A DNA stretch of 64,000 nucleotides, from contig CM074763.1 of the NCBI GenBank assembly GCA_037355855.1, forward strand, positions 558,001 to 622,000, written 5' to 3'. The position numbers and the translations under genes were made by a program. The first letter of the stretch is position 1; the number at the start of each line of letters is the position of its first letter. The stretch is from Pseudo-nitzschia pungens (taxonomy: Eukaryota; Bacillariophyta; Bacillariophyceae; Bacillariales; Bacillariaceae). Under the pieces are notes generated by a model. The model worked only from the letters and a program-made list of their open reading frames with translations, was not told the origin of the DNA and did not search any database. Shown one piece after another: positions 16,244-64,000 of this stretch.

Positions 16244-16254
16244 CGTTGGAAAGA

Positions 16255-16388
16255 GTGGAGTGAAGTGAAGTGAAGTGAAGTGAAGTGAAGTGAAGTGAAG
16301 TGGAGTGGAGTGGAGTGGAGTGGAGTGGAGTGGAGTGGAGTGGAGTGGAGTGGAGTGGAGTGAAGCGAAGTGAAGTGAAGTGGAGTGG
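16255..16388. repeat. TGAAG/TGGAG pentamer array directly upstream of PDZ-PHD start
   Basis: About 26 tandem 5-bp units: first TGAAG, then TGGAG, then TGAAG again. The array begins 12 bp upstream of the ATG at 16243 and therefore lies in the 5' leader or promoter. The minus-strand frame runs through it as (LHSTP)n, but that frame has no upstream ATG. Confidence 0.9.
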
Positions 16389-16979
16389 ACTATCTTTTCC
16401 AATCGATTTCAGTCGGTTCCTTCCAATTCTATGCCACTCCATCCACTGTGTGATTGACTCGATTCGATTCGATTCGATCCGATGCGATTTCAATCCACTT
16501 CGCTTTCGCTTTCGCTTTTGCTTTTGCTTTTCCTTTCCCTTTCTTTTTCCCTTCCGCTTTCCCTTTCGCTTTCACTTTTGCTTTTGCTTTCGATTTCGTA
16601 CACTCGAATGACTCCATCCATCCAATGATTCGGTACCGTATGACGTACGTGTATGGTCCAGAGCAATACCCAAATACACCAAGGCAGATGCCGCGAGCAG
16701 AGGATAGCACGCAATCAGAATCTAGCTCGCTTGCTCGATGGCATCAAATCCACGGTACGTGTTCGTGTAGTTTGGGATCCTTGGGAAAGGAACGGAATGT
16801 TAACATGTCCACATCGAATGTATGATGATGATGATGGACGTGTGCATGGTTGATTGATTTTGATTTTGAGTTGATTGATGATTGACTGATTGACTGATTC
16901 ATTACGGAACTCGGGATGCGGCACCAAGACTTATTCCACTGCATACTATTTAGTAATGTACACGTAAGGTTACTGTACT

Positions 16980-27845: not shown

Positions 27846-30140
<2,295 letters not shown>

Positions 30141-42027: not shown

Positions 42028-42032
42028 GTCTT

Positions 42033-42076
<44 letters not shown>

Positions 42077-42100
42077 TGTGTTCGATTCACAGTCAAGGCA
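42028..42100 (+). tRNA. trnF-GAA: tRNA-Phe (GAA)
   Basis: A 73-nt cloverleaf. The acceptor stem GTCTTGA pairs with TCAAGGC (one T-G wobble). The D-arm is GCTCAGTTGGGAGAGC, the anticodon arm is CAGACTGAAGATCTG with GAA in the loop, and the T-arm has GTTCGATTC. The discriminator base is A and no intron is present. Box A and box B consensus sequences are visible. Confidence 0.95.
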
Positions 42101-42116
42101 GTCTTTGATGGCTTTC

Positions 42117-42189
42117 TCCGATATGATGTAGGTGGTTAGCATACTTGCCTCTCACGCAGGATACCAGGGTTCGAGTCCCTGTATCGGAA
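42117..42189 (+). tRNA. trnE-CTC: tRNA-Glu (CTC)
   Basis: A 73-nt cloverleaf, 16 nt after tRNA-Phe. The acceptor stem TCCGATA pairs with TATCGGA. The D-arm contains GGTGGTTAGCA. The anticodon stem CTTGC/GCAGG encloses the loop CTCTCAC with anticodon CTC, and the T-arm has GGTTCGAGTCC. A TTTTTG run begins 2 nt after the 3' end, acting as a pol III terminator candidate. Confidence 0.93.
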
Positions 42190-43217
42190 CTCTTTTTGCT
42201 TTTGCATTGGCCGACCTTTTGGACGAGGAGTGGGGACTAATCTTGCAAAAGACAGGAGCAATGGCAAAGCTATGCGTCCGTACGTTTTAGATCCCAAACC
42301 TTGCAGGTGTGGTACTTTTACCTGTAAGAGCGAAGCGCACGAAAGAATGGTGTGTCAACATCACAGCGACAAACAGCTGACAGGAAGCAACATCATGCGA
42401 CGAGTAGCAGCGATGCTAACTCGGATGCTGGGTCGGACAGTTCTTTTTGTGCTGGGGATGGATAACAATGGCGACAAAAATCAACAGCAGCGGCGACAAA
42501 GAGCGTCGAACAACGAACCGTACGGGGGTTTTGCTAGATGCAACACGTGATTTATCTACCACAGAGGGATGACCCAGCACGGCACGGAACGACCTCGAGA
42601 GGTACAAGAGTCGCTAGCGGGGTGGAAGCAGCAGCAATGCCACCAACAACGTCGTTCTGCGAATACTGTACGTCGTTTTGCTTGGTTCGACACCTGGTTC
42701 CTGTACTGCGCAAGCGTAGCCAAGATAAACAAGGGGAGCTGCGGTGTGTGTGTGTGTGTGTGTGTGTGTATGGGGGGGTTAAAGCAGCGGCGAACAAGAG
42801 CAGAGGCAAACAAGAGCACCAGGGGAGCGAGTCTCCTTGAGCAGCAGCAGCAGTAGAATCAGCAGCAGCAAGTGAGTGAGTGAGTGAGTGAGTGCGTCGA
42901 TGGATAAGGGGACGCGAGTCAAGGCAATACTCCGATGAAAAGATAATCTATCCATCCTCAGAGAACGTGAAGAACACAGATCCGATACTCAAGGGAGGCG
43001 AGGTGACGGGACACTCCGCATAAGATAGATCGATCCAGCATTCCTCTGGGAAACGAGGCGGTATAGGAAAAGATATCTATTCATACTCAGGGTCCACGTG
43101 CTCGAGGGCACACTCCTCGATGAAGGGACGCAAGGCGATGCACGAAAAGATAATCTATCCATACCCGGTGGACGTGAGGCGTGGATTCGATACTCCGCAA
43201 AAGAGAGAGATCCATGC
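42190..43217. repeat. Gene-poor repeat region after the tRNAs
   Basis: Contains (TG)n at 42743-42769 and GTGA repeats at 42870-42893. Diverged copies of a degenerate unit run on to ~43290: GAAAAGATAATCTATCCAT occurs at about 42937 and 43144 and in shortened form at 43069; GATACTCCGCA(A/T)AAGA-like words recur. No coding gene is supported. Confidence 0.6.
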
Positions 43218-44050: not shown

Positions 44051-44187
44051 TATTTTCATATCCATTTATTTATGACTTGTTGATTGAACTTTCAGACGAA
44101 AAAGATGGACTACCGGTATTTTATCACAAAAGTACGGTAGAAAGCTCCCACAAAACAGCGCAGTTCACAGTAAGTTAACCTTACTCG

Positions 44188-44425
44188 TCACAAATAATAA
44201 TACTTCGTACAGTATGTTTTAAGCAGAAGTCAATCTGGTAAGCAGCATTCAACGGTGAGTCCCAACGGTAATTACCAGTAACTTGCTTCACATTACGAAT
44301 GAGTCAGTGTCGTCACAAATAATACTTCGTATGATTTAAGCAGAAGTTAATCTCGTAAGCAGCATTCAACGGTGAGTCCCAACCGTACCAGTAACTTGCG
44401 TCACATTACGAATGAGTCAATGTTC
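44188..44425. repeat. Tandem duplication of a ~120-bp unit
   Basis: Copy 1 is about 44188-44313 and copy 2 about 44314-44425. Both contain CGTCACAAATAATA, AAGCAGAAGT(C/T)AATCT, GTAAGCAGCATTCAACGGTG, AGTCCCAAC(G/C)GTA and CATTACGAATGAGTCA. Point changes and small indels separate them. Confidence 0.9.
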
Positions 44426-44570
44426 TCAGTCTACATTATCGTTTGTCTTGTGTTTACCGTCATCGGACTCACTGCGGTTTGAATTTCTCTTGCTCCACAG
44501 CTCCGCATTTTGTTTGTGTTATTCATGTTCCCCCTTGGATGCCTTCTGTATGGTGCTCAAAGGCCACAGG

Positions 44571-45253
44571 GCTGGTTGAAAGAAGTGGCTCGTTCGTCCC
44601 AACCGTATCTTACGATAAAATACGAGCGGGTCGTTTCTTTCAGTCAGCTCTCTGGACTCTGCTCCTCTGGTGATTGCATGCATTGCGTTTTGAATGTCGT
44701 TTTGCGCATATCGATGACTCTCTCCCCTTTAACCATTCCCTTTGATTACCCACGCTACTGTGCAAAATATCCACCCGGCTGGTTGAAAGCATTGACGCGT
44801 TCGTCCCAACTTTTGTCTTCCGGTAAAATACGTCCGGGTCGATGCTTTCAACCAGCTGTGTGGACTGAGCGACATCCATGGCGTTCTGAATTTCTTTTGT
44901 GCTGCAGTATATGTCTTTTTCTCGCTTCCTCGATTCCATTTGGTTCCCCGCAATATGGCACAAATTGGCCACTGGATTGATTGAAAGCATTGACTAGTTC
45001 GTCACTTTATCATGCGGTATAATACGTCCTGATCGATGCTCTCACTTAGCCCTATGAACTTGACTCCTCCGATGGTCGGATCTGTTGTCTCTTGAATTTC
45101 TTTGTGTTGCAGTAACAATGACTGTTTCGCGCTTTCCTGATTCCCGTTTGAAGGTGTGGTGCCGAATGGTCATGTGTTTGGTTGAAAGCATCCACTGGTT
45201 TGTCCCAACCTCATCGTACTGTACAGTGTGAGCGAGTGGATGCTGTCAAATGG
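44571..45253. repeat. Tandem array of ~200-bp units, each with a ~78-nt hairpin
   Basis: Four diverged units carry hairpins at 44571-44647, 44778-44856, 44972-45050 and 45176-45253 (spacings 207, 194 and 204). Copy 2 is nearly perfect: GCTGGTTGAAAGCATTGAC on the left, GTCGATGCTTTCAACCAGC on the right, with a ~40-nt loop. Between hairpins, units share a TTGAATTTCTTTTGTGCTGCAG-like segment (near 44480, 44685, 44888 and 45093). No long frame is conserved. Stem pairing persists although arm sequences differ between copies. Strand is undefined. Confidence 0.85.
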
Positions 45254-47411
45254 CCTCAGGGGACGACCCATGCCGTTAGTGGTTCGTACGTGATGCTTTT
45301 CGTTTGGAGAACGGCCATTGCACGGGCGTGTGTACGTACTCACGATCATTTTTTCTTTCCTTGCACGGTTCTCCCGGTTGCTGGTTGCATTCCATCCTTC
45401 CGGTAGCAAACAGCGTCGGTAATTTGGTGGGAAAGGCTTTCGCCGGGTTCAGATCGCACTTGATTGTCGATCTTTCCCACCTCATTGGACGAATGATAGG
45501 TTGGTATGGGGCAACACGCGCAATGATACGGCGCAAGTCCACGTCCTGCCTCAACCAATCGCAAATATTTTTCCTGCTGTGTTGCCACGAACTGTAATCC
45601 AGGACGTTTTGCCCCTTCGGTCGCAATTCCTTGCCACGTTCAAGAAAGGGGATCCGCCAATTTTTTGTTTTGTTTCAGTTATCGGTTGATGGACGGCATA
45701 AGTCCTGGTAATGGATATAAACAGTGACGTCGATTCATCTGTTTCTGTCTCTCGGAGATGATGCAGCTCTTCGACGTTTGTTAATGTCTTCGTTGAATTC
45801 ATGTTCTCATTGGAAAAAGCTCAAGAGCAACAGAGTGTCCCCGGAAAGGTACAATTGTTCCAATCGTCTTCGTGAGATCGCTTGTTCGTCGTAGATTAAG
45901 ATATTGTATAATCGAATCACAAACGCTGTCCATGTAATAGGAGCCTTGCCTATTGAAATATTCGGTATTCTTCAGCAGTACACGTAGCAAGTGGTCCCAG
46001 GAACTGTAGTTCCTAATCGTGGCATTGAAAAGAGTTGTGACTGGCAGCCCAGTAAGAGTCACATCCAAATCATGTACTGTGTTCACTCGCTTTTGTGTTC
46101 AATGCTTCTTGGCCATTCGTTTATGGACTTAATTGTCCCGATAGAAGATCATGGAGATCGTACACTCGATCGGTAGTTCCTTGGCATTAGTGACGATCGA
46201 AGCGTTCGAGAGATTGTTTGGTCGGTCTCTTCTAGCTGTCCCGTATCACTTCGACACTAATGCTTGTTCGCAATGGTTCATTTGCGTTGTTCGCATGCTT
46301 TGATTCACTTGCAGCAGATGGGAGTTTCACAGTAACCTTGCGATTCGATTCGACAATCACAGACTCCATGTGTTTCGATCCCTATCGGCGCTGTAGATTG
46401 GATGCAATGCTTGGCGCTCGTAGCAGGGCACGTTGCAATCGTACAACAGCTCTCATGAGTACAACGCACTTGCAGCAGAGGGGCATCCTGGAATACAGGT
46501 CCATCAGATGGCAGGCGGAAATCGCACGGATCCTGTTGTTGCTGCTGCAGCGAACGTTCGTAACATTGTAACAATGCAAGTTCATAACAGGGAACATCGT
46601 AAACAGTTACAATGGGGAGTCTCGTAGTTTCTCCATCCTTGTTTGTCTGATGTTGCGATTGATCGCAACATGATACCATGGAGATCAGGGACAAATAAGC
46701 AATCAATCTTCAGGGCAAAGAAAGGTCTCGTGCGATCGGGGCGACTATCCAATATTCTTGTTGTGGAGTCCTTTGCTACGGTCGTGAATCAACAATGTCC
46801 TTTTGTTGCTGCTGTAGCTGCTATAGCTGCTCTTGCTGCGAGGAGAGGAAAATATCGATTCATTGTGCGCTTTCACTGCATTGACAGAATCTATCGATCC
46901 AACCATCCGCGATACATCGATCGATCATCCACATCTGGACCTACTCGTATCCAATAACCGGTGCAATGGACAAAGCACGCAAGTCCCAAATTATTTTGCC
47001 TTGATTTTTCTGATGCACCATAGCATTTTTCTTTATTGCTATTCATGTTGCATAGGGTCAAAGCAGCAACGAAAAAACACAAACTGTTTTAAAAGTACAT
47101 TGATGAACAACTTGAAACTATGCAAACACAGCTCTACCAGATTTTTTTCAGACAATCTAGTTGAAAATAGAGTTCGTCGTTAGCAGTGACTACCACCACA
47201 TCAATTTGAAACGGGATTGTCTCGGCTTCATCGAGTTTCGGAAACTTGATTTCTGAAAGAAAAGTCAGGCGCCGCGAGTTTGTCCCTAGAATTAAGTATG
47301 CGGTCACCTTATTACAACAATGGTGTGATTGATTTGTCCATGCAAGATTTATCGAGATAATGATGCACGGATTGGTCTCGGTTTTAGTTCTGGGTCGAGC
47401 ACTACTTGTAG
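45254..47411. other. Gene-poor region, possible decayed coding fragments
   Basis: No intact gene. A minus-strand stretch 45799-46086 has protein-like content (LTGLPVTTLFNATIRNYSSW, GSYYMDSVCDSIIQYLNLRR) but no ATG and no recognisable family. Another at 45276-45626 contains YSSWQHSRKNICDWL. These may be remnants of one family. GCT/CTG triplets lie at 46810-46845. Confidence 0.4.
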
Positions 47412-59136: not shown

Positions 59137-59580
59137 CATCCGGTTTTTTTGGCACTTATACATCCGGGTTTTTTGACACTTATATATCCGGGTTTGTTTG
59201 ACATTTCTACTTATACATCCGGGTTTGTTTGACATTTCTACTTATACATCCGGGTTTGTTTGACATTTATACTTATATATCCGGGTTTGTTTGACATTTA
59301 TACTTATATATCCGGGTTTGTTTGACATTTATACTTATACATCCGGGTTTGTTTGACATTTATACTTATACATCCGGGTTTTTTAACATTTATACTTATA
59401 CATCCGGGTTTTTTTGACACTTAGAAATCCGGGTTTGTTTGACATTTATACTTATACATCCGGGTTAGTTTGACATTTATACTTATACATCCGGGTTTTT
59501 TTAACACTTTTACATCCGGGTTTGTTTGACATTTATAATTATACATCCGGATTTTTTTGACACTTGTACATGCGGGTGTT
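59137..59580. repeat. 31-bp tandem repeat array (~14 copies)
   Basis: The unit core is ATCCGGGTTTGTTTGACATT followed by TATACTTATAC. Copies are head to tail with period ~31, shorter units (~22 bp) occur where TTTTTTGACACTTATAC replaces part, and the first copies are more diverged. Translation in any frame is only the repeat. Confidence 0.93.
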
Positions 59581-63240: not shown

Positions 63241-64000
63241 GTAAAGTAGGGCGACGCTGCAAAACACTCAGCCATTCGACACTGCAATCTAAAAATGAGG
63301 TCGGACCACATATGCTTTCTCAATAGTGCAACGATGTCGACCCGAGTGTGTCATTACGTATTATTTTTTAGTTGTCGACCAGAATATTGAAGAAAAAAGG
63401 AAGGAATAACGTCACAGTCATTGTGTCATGGTCACAGTCTTCGGAGTGTTCAGACACTAATGATTGTAGAAATATAGATGATGTAACAATGGTCATACTA
63501 CAGGTAAGATCTTAGCTTGTATTCGTATCGAGGAAAGAGCACATGTTTATGCTTTCACTTCAGGACCCTTCATTTAGATAAGCCGGCACTTTTGATAGAT
63601 TGCTTCGTATTCGTAGTATTTTGTACGGCACAGTAATCTCGTCGATGGGGAGTGAGTTGCTTCTCGTACCTGGTATTTTCGCCCTGGTCATCAATGCGCA
63701 GTTTCCTTGTCTGAGTTGAGTAAGGTTAAGGCCTTACACAATATTATTGTGATACAGTATCCTTAGAGAAGACTAAGGTTACTCGTACCGTAAGCCCCTT
63801 GATCGTTTTTGAGATAGCGATGTACATGGAAGATACTCAGAACTGAGACGTAATTTTAAGATTGTATTGTATGTCATTAATATCATGATTGTTGCATCGT
63901 CAATGCTATCTGCATTCAACCAAATTACGTCAACGACACGAGTCTGTACATCTACGTAAAGGTTACGAATACAAAGTTGTCCTATCAAGTCGACGATCGA
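63241..64000. other. Intergenic to window end, no gene seen
   Basis: AT-rich. AGTAAGGTTAAGGCCTTAC near 63718 and CTAAGGTTACTCGTACCGTAAG near 63773 repeat the window's common words. Short frames only. Confidence 0.55.

Follow-up and report, generated by a model that had tools for sequence, protein, structure and literature searches.

We asked why four tandem units in the genome of a pennate diatom each keep a hairpin whose arms differ in sequence from one unit to the next, and what an RNA with such hairpins might do. The units occupy positions 44561-45260 of the window (the whole stretch of DNA analysed, 64,000 nucleotides), with start-to-start spacings of 207, 198, and 201 bp. A sequence-only reading had described four tandem hairpin units of ~200 bp; these are present, and the arm sequences that it quoted are correct. 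The hairpins themselves are longer than the ~78 nt it gave them: each measures 94-99 nt and contributes 35 stem columns that all fall on one diagonal of the four-copy alignment (i+j=100; Table 1). The stem of copy 1 runs for 30 continuous pairs, including G-U. Identity between copies is 62-79% in the loop, 63-84% in the arms, and 40-63% in the spacers.

We compared the minimum free energy (MFE) of each copy, folded as the + strand, with 300 dinucleotide shuffles of that copy (the basis of the z-scores in Table 1). For copies 1, 2, 3, and 4, respectively, 0, 0, 8, and 19 of the 300 shuffles fold as low. The fold stability of copies 1 and 2 is therefore far beyond chance, and that of copies 3 and 4 only weakly so when energy alone is considered. 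Since segments elsewhere in the window reach even lower MFEs, to -56.9 kcal/mol, we did not use raw energy as an argument. Copy 3, which had been called the weakest fold, is the weakest by MFE but not by z-score, where copy 4 ranks last. A microRNA precursor is expected to be paired across the guide region of its arm, and in columns 11-29 we found 19/19, 19/19, 15/19, and 16/19 positions paired in copies 1 to 4, including G-U.

Table 1. Features of the hairpin array and its immediate surroundings, in window positions.
Feature	Position	Strand	Details
Pair of ~117-bp direct repeats	44185-44428	+	just upstream of the array; 59 nt at 93% and 43 nt at 91% identity
Hairpin copy 1	44561-44658	+	MFE -47.5 kcal/mol, z -7.0; 33/35 columns paired, 8 G-U, 0 A-C
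Hairpin copy 2	44768-44866	+	MFE -51.8 kcal/mol, z -8.4; 31/35 columns paired
Hairpin copy 3	44966-45060	+	MFE -24.6 kcal/mol, z -2.1; 10/35 columns unpaired, 5 of them A-C; most decayed copy
Hairpin copy 4	45167-45260	+	MFE -30.4 kcal/mol, z -1.7; 27/33 columns paired among those with a base on both sides
5' arm site copy 1, ATSFNQP	44569-44589	-	matrix score 27.2 bits, best of 127,960 positions
5' arm site copy 2, VNAFNQP	44776-44796	-	matrix score 19.1 bits, second in window
5' arm site copy 3, VNAFNQS	44974-44994	-	matrix score 18.6 bits, third in window
5' arm site copy 4, VDAFNQT	45175-45195	-	matrix score 15.6 bits, fourth in window
Candidate 5p small RNA copy 1, UGGUUGAAAGAAGUGGCUCGU	44573-44593	+	putative ends; equivalents from 44780, 44978, and 45179

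We next consider whether the stems have been preserved as stems. Among the 35 stem pairs, 8 are invariant, 11 show one-sided variation, 8 have a change on both sides, and 8 deviate only through unpaired cells. When the partner column was slid by 1-3 columns, two-sided pairs fell from 8 to 1-3 and the proportion of pairing cells from 84.1% to 33-46%. One of 500 shuffles attained 8 two-sided pairs, a value not to be taken as a probability when sequences are related, and the whole comparison is among four related paralogues, a small sample. Both the hairpins and the covariation in their stems are real. The earlier proposal that selection has acted on a folded RNA or a cruciform is supported by the eight two-sided pairs. 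Two of the specific changes then put forward, C-G to A-U in copy 1 and G-C to C-G in copy 4, hold; the third, U-G to C-G in copy 4, was said to affect both arms and is one-sided.

If a pair decays by a single transition, a given strand is equally likely to show G-U or A-C, and the opposite strand then shows the alternative. On the + strand we counted 21 G-U against 5 A-C among non-Watson-Crick pairs (binomial p 0.0012). All five A-C pairs lie in copy 3; copies 1, 2, and 4 together hold 17 G-U and no A-C. This excess favours an RNA of the + strand over a DNA cruciform or palindrome, and + is most likely the RNA strand. A covariance model gives 103/50, 102/41, 83/31, and 77/20 bits (+/- strand) for the four copies, a comparison that is partly circular since the model was built from the + strand copies.

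The arms themselves suggest what such an RNA might recognise. Read as its reverse complement, each of the four 5' arms spells the core of the DUF285 repeat, a relation that the sequence-only reading had missed. We scored both strands of the window (127,960 positions) with a matrix of seven codons built from 288 distinct FN[QEHK] units of 30 DUF285 loci (L047-L076), all outside the window. The four highest scores belong to the 5' arms, one in each copy and in register; the next score is 11.9. DUF285 units themselves have a median of 25.1, and the tail probability of the copy 1 score is 4.7e-10 per position. The seven-codon span of the matrix was picked after the match had been seen and is post hoc; the P value bears correction for ~55 windows per unit and for hairpin positions. 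The four matches are not independent, because the copies share ancestry. The score of 11.9 belongs to an isolated LSAFNQI reading at 63906-63926, near the window end, with no other DUF285 repeat in the surrounding frame. A mismatch-only comparison (363 units, looser rules, three more loci) was too loose to decide, with 18 of 1469 random 99-mers of the window and one reversed hairpin also differing from a DUF285 21-mer by 3 mismatches or fewer; it was replaced by the matrix and tail probability. The likeness to DUF285 is confined to ~21-30 nt of each ~200-nt unit; beyond 7-8 codons, inspection by eye found no DUF285 motif in the - strand reading of the units. Judged by these in-register matches, the 5' arms are antisense to the DUF285 core. 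All four copies share UGRUUGAAAG, and the start of the candidate 5p small RNA (Table 1) was chosen for its 5' U.

Among the open frames of the window are matches to Aquarius, HSP70, a DEAD-box helicase, and a class C GPCR. For the Aquarius protein the closest named relative comes from Cylindrotheca fusiformis, a pennate diatom (55% identity, rank 13), and other proteins reach 59%; the genome is on this ground taken to be that of a pennate diatom. The array is flanked by tRNA-Phe/tRNA-Glu (42028-42190) on one side and by open frames from 47.1 kb onward on the other. Between them the sole open frame of at least 150 aa is 44510-44980, and no hexamer coding score in this interval is positive. The hexamer test was trained on five open frames of the window and has low sensitivity, with the open frames at 47.4-48.5 kb scoring about zero or below. 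A coding repeat was considered since each unit spacing is divisible by three and copies 1-2 lie within an open frame, but indels break the register (the 3' halves include spacings of 208 and 194, owing to internal indels). A coding gene or DUF285 pseudogene was likewise rejected, as hexamer scores are negative in all frames in this low-sensitivity test and DUF285 likeness, judged by eye, does not extend along the unit. The TTGCAG motif reported as kept in the spacer occurs as CTGCAG/TTGCAG in units 2 and 3 and is absent from units 1 and 4; with the motif in only two of four units, we rejected an intronic or mirtron-like arrangement. In agreement with the sequence-only reading, which recognised no known non-coding RNA family, an Rfam search of the whole window at the gathering score gave two tRNAs and nothing further.

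Other repeats lie in the window: a minisatellite at 59137-59569 (period ~31 bp, ~13-14 copies) and short tandem arrays at 16253-16389 (GAGTG x27, 95% matches) and 29864-29950 (ATCACATGGC x8.7, 100% matches). The pair of ~117-bp direct repeats upstream of the array shares GTCCCAACCGTA with the loop of copy 1 (a side entry spells the shared stretch GTCCCAAC(C)GTA), and possibly belongs to the same transcript as the hairpins. These upstream repeats have no second locus in the genome and form no strong hairpin, and none of the window's top 25 matrix matches to DUF285 falls there.

We then turned to the genome (66.9-Mb assembly, 28 contigs). The 19-nt arm of copy 2 matches 39 places with at most 3 mismatches, against 12 for the reversed pattern. 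Five of the 39 are the array, nine have no assigned locus, and 25 were read in context; four loci, comprising three distinct 75-bp arrays, were analysed for repeats. The opposite strand of these three arrays reads AFNQPINEWDVS-type repeats, which are DUF285 (PF03382, BspA-like). One of the 75-bp arrays (L010) has a reading frame broken in places. DUF285 matches in the genome number at least 235 (150 of 328 candidates scored), in open frames of up to 3282 codons. Genes of the 25-residue DUF285/BspA-like repeat form a very large expansion, for example at C10:109695-115058 and C12:1378657-1381719.

The 15-mer GGYTGGTTGAAAGMA has 79 matches in the genome against none for its reverse; 2 are the array and 77 lie elsewhere, 74 of them antisense in DUF285-type repeats. 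By hand comparison, 73 of the 77 are on the opposite strand of a listed DUF285 match, either inside it or within 0.5 kb and in its cluster; one more (C2:6716593) is in the 75-bp array at L010, and the other three (C2:7068913, 7068988, and 7069063) are 75 bp apart and outside the DUF285 rows listed. A single DUF285 cluster on contig 10 bears 19 of these sites. With the 21-mer of copy 1, we found 28 other matches at up to 3 mismatches against 0 for the control; 23 are antisense in listed DUF285 clusters and five are outside them (C1:2305130, C2:7068912, C2:7068987, C3:5481940, and C6:1734313). Given these antisense matches, an RNA of the 5' arm would have complementary sites in DUF285 mRNAs. A microRNA gene calls for complementary sites beyond chance, and the counts (77 against 0 for the 15-mer, 28 against 0 for the 21-mer) provide them.

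The complementarity is imperfect among the 288 units sampled, which are part of the family: no 21-nt arm matches any of them perfectly. The best pairings have 1 mismatch and 3 G-U (copy 1), 2 and 2 (copy 2), and 3 mismatches (copies 3 and 4). On a plant-like target scale, 5, 1, 1, and 1 of the 288 units score at most 4 with the four candidate 5p RNAs and none scores at most 3; with 40 shuffles of each RNA, no unit reached 4.

More units of the same kind were sought across the genome, as had been suggested, and no second copy was found. In particular, a DNA search for dispersed, MITE-like copies, which skips very common words, returned this locus only. A 25-nt arm pattern allowing 3 mismatches occurs at one other place (C4:4334817), which has no such hairpin and no DUF285 motif. 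The pattern KTTGAAAG-N40..66-CTTTCAAM occurs at 6 places including the array (control 2). Folding of the five others gives -14.4 to -27.3 kcal/mol; they have no DUF285 motif (best score <0) and were rejected as further hairpin loci. Two TTGAAAG/CTTTCAA hairpins without a DUF285 motif, L078 (C3:6450863-6450939) and L082 (C7:1074002-1074078), reach -27.3 and -25.0 kcal/mol when folded with 10-nt flanks. A genome search for hairpins directed at the WDVS part of DUF285 (GAAACRTCCCA-N25..55-TGGGAYGTTTC) gave 0 matches.

In contrast to the 5' arms, whose scores are given in Table 1, the 3' arms score 2.3, 11.0, -7.6, and -11.9 bits in register; most carry no DUF285 motif, and the 3' arm of copy 2 retains a partial match in sense. 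Copies 1 and 4 both have 5' sites that fit DUF285, although 8 of the 21 bases differ between them. When copy 1 was substituted at random, a fit as good was obtained in 3 of 4000 trials with 8 changes, as in copy 4, in 0.9% with 6 changes, as in copy 3, and in 7.4% with 4 changes, as in copy 2; with the 5p of copy 2 as the start, copies 3 and 4 each gave 2.7%. For the 3p arms, starts from copy 1 or 2 gave 18-56%, apart from 1.2% for copy 1 to 2. The test is not clean, since the 5p comparison of copy 1 to 2 has P 0.074 and the 3p of copy 2 has P 0.012. In the F-N-Q codons, differences among the 5p arms are at third positions only (AAC/AAT, CAG/CAA), while those among the 3p arms are at first, second, and third positions. 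In this small sample of four related copies, whose loops are conserved almost as well as their arms, the pattern is the trace expected of a guide that follows its target and a passenger that needs only to pair.

These comparisons bear on the strongest alternative, in which an inverted copy of a DUF285 gene fragment formed a hairpin, was amplified in tandem, and is now decaying without function, as a failed or newborn locus. Hairpin small-RNA genes are known to arise by inverted duplication of a target gene, the array is a single locus with weakened stems in copies 3 and 4, and the 11.0-bit sense match in the 3p of copy 2 is what such an origin would leave. We consider this history unlikely: two-sided changes exceed both the shuffled and the slid controls, three copies hold G-U without A-C, in most comparisons the 5p match is retained better than under random substitution, its retention also exceeds that in the 3p arm, and DUF285 likeness is limited to the short stretch described above.

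Silencing by a guide RNA needs proteins that cut and carry it, and a microRNA gene calls for Argonaute and RNase III genes in its genome. Both are present: an Argonaute-type gene at L038, with PAZ (44.9 bits) and Piwi (83.7 bits) domains in neighbouring open frames, and RNase III (66.9 bits), with domains at L040 (C4:1112676) and L041 (C4:1894468), all above the Pfam cut-offs. By eye, neighbouring frames beside L040 hold a second, partial RNase III-like motif, which Pfam does not detect, and the locus resembles a two-domain Dicer-like gene in several exons. In the passages cited, diatoms are described as possessing Argonaute and Dicer-like RNase III proteins, and the Dicer-like protein of Thalassiosira pseudonana as having two RNase III domains and little else (PMC4156623). 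MicroRNAs of Phaeodactylum tricornutum and small RNAs of T. pseudonana have been claimed in the cited portions of earlier reports (PMC3141676 and PMC3155517, respectively). The sections cited from later surveys report no canonical microRNAs in T. pseudonana and Fragilariopsis cylindrus (PMC4156623) or in P. tricornutum (PMC4247016). Most small RNAs of P. tricornutum are there described as 25-30 nt long and as mapping to methylated repeats, and some as mapping to genes that are methylated (PMC4247016). As for the putative target, the cited part of a global-ocean diatom survey places DUF285 among the top 100 Pfam families, where no other domain of unknown function appears, and describes its genes and transcripts as especially plentiful at high latitudes (PMC11992049). 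In the open-licence literature searched, we found no paper that treats diatoms, microRNAs, and DUF285 together.

The sizes and locations reported for P. tricornutum, together with the repetitive nature of DUF285 arrays, speak for another reading, in which siRNAs of 25-30 nt from both arms would guide DNA methylation of DUF285 genes with none of the precision of a microRNA. We regard it as improbable, slightly more so than a decaying inverted copy: the stronger retention of the 5p match suits one guide strand rather than both, and there is no near-identity to the 288 sampled target units. It is quite improbable that the hairpins form a structured RNA with another role, such as protein binding or RNA modification, and match DUF285 by coincidence. 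The loop is conserved to a degree needless for a pure guide precursor, but all four copies give top-ranked matches in register, the 15-mer is distributed as described, and the array has no Rfam match. That the units are DNA palindromes or a palindromic mobile element is least credible of all and hardly worth entertaining, for although the arms are palindromic and template switching (or a cruciform function) can keep pairing restored on both sides, the G-U excess is strand-specific and no second genome locus was found.

We return to a guide RNA, and put at about 0.58 the probability that the array is a microRNA-like or hairpin-siRNA cluster, that is, a non-coding gene of the + strand whose 5p RNAs act against DUF285 mRNAs. 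Under this hypothesis a + strand transcript would carry the four paralogous hairpins, and an RNase III/Dicer-like enzyme would cut it. The 5p strand, antisense to the codons of [AV]-[TND]-[AS]-F-N-Q-[PST] in the core of the 25-residue DUF285 repeat (BspA-like and LRR-related), would enter Argonaute and repress DUF285 mRNAs, many of which would offer several tandem target sites. The 3' arm would be a passenger, with pairing as its sole requirement. Transcription, dicing, the ends of the small RNAs, 5p loading, and silencing are all predicted here from the genome. In its boldest form, to which we give somewhat less than even odds, the array would be a true diatom microRNA cluster devoted to one giant repeat family, in which four diverging guides track synonymous variation in the core codons of DUF285 and a few RNAs restrain dozens of genes.

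If true, this would be an independent origin, in a single-celled alga, of the miR482-type arrangement in which a master guide acts against a multigene family. Confirmation would supply a specific guide-target pair that can be tested in a diatom, a handle on the function of DUF285 proteins, and an independent case of small RNAs that follow the wobble positions of a gene family. The matter has weight given the surveys whose cited sections report no canonical diatom microRNAs (PMC4156623, PMC4247016).

Known systems resemble the array in part. Its genome shares Piwi/PAZ and RNase III domains with known diatom small-RNA pathways, and it differs from T. pseudonana, F. cylindrus, and P. tricornutum, set beside it here by description, in that canonical microRNAs are reported absent there in the sections cited (PMC4156623, PMC4247016). 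As in the microRNAs of the brown alga Ectocarpus, as far as their cited description goes, the candidate 5p could begin with a 5' U; unlike them, the array has four paralogues within 700 bp. In Giardia, according to the part of the source cited, RNAi controls a large family of surface proteins (PMC3566956), a likeness drawn by description, since both the machinery and the targets (variant surface proteins) are different. The closest parallel in logic is miR482/2118 of seed plants, where, as described in the portion cited, hairpin paralogues produce a guide that fits the codons of a conserved motif in a large LRR-type family; the motif is the P-loop of NBS-LRR genes, and variation falls at the wobble positions of the target codons (PMC9650292). 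The 5p arms of the array likewise vary at third positions only within F-N-Q. The likeness is one of logic only, the array having no Rfam match at the gathering score: it comes from another kingdom, the proposed target is DUF285 rather than NBS-LRR, and the guide is proposed on the 5' arm. Also unlike miR482/2118, the proposed target of the array is itself a tandem repeat, and hence each mRNA would present several sites.
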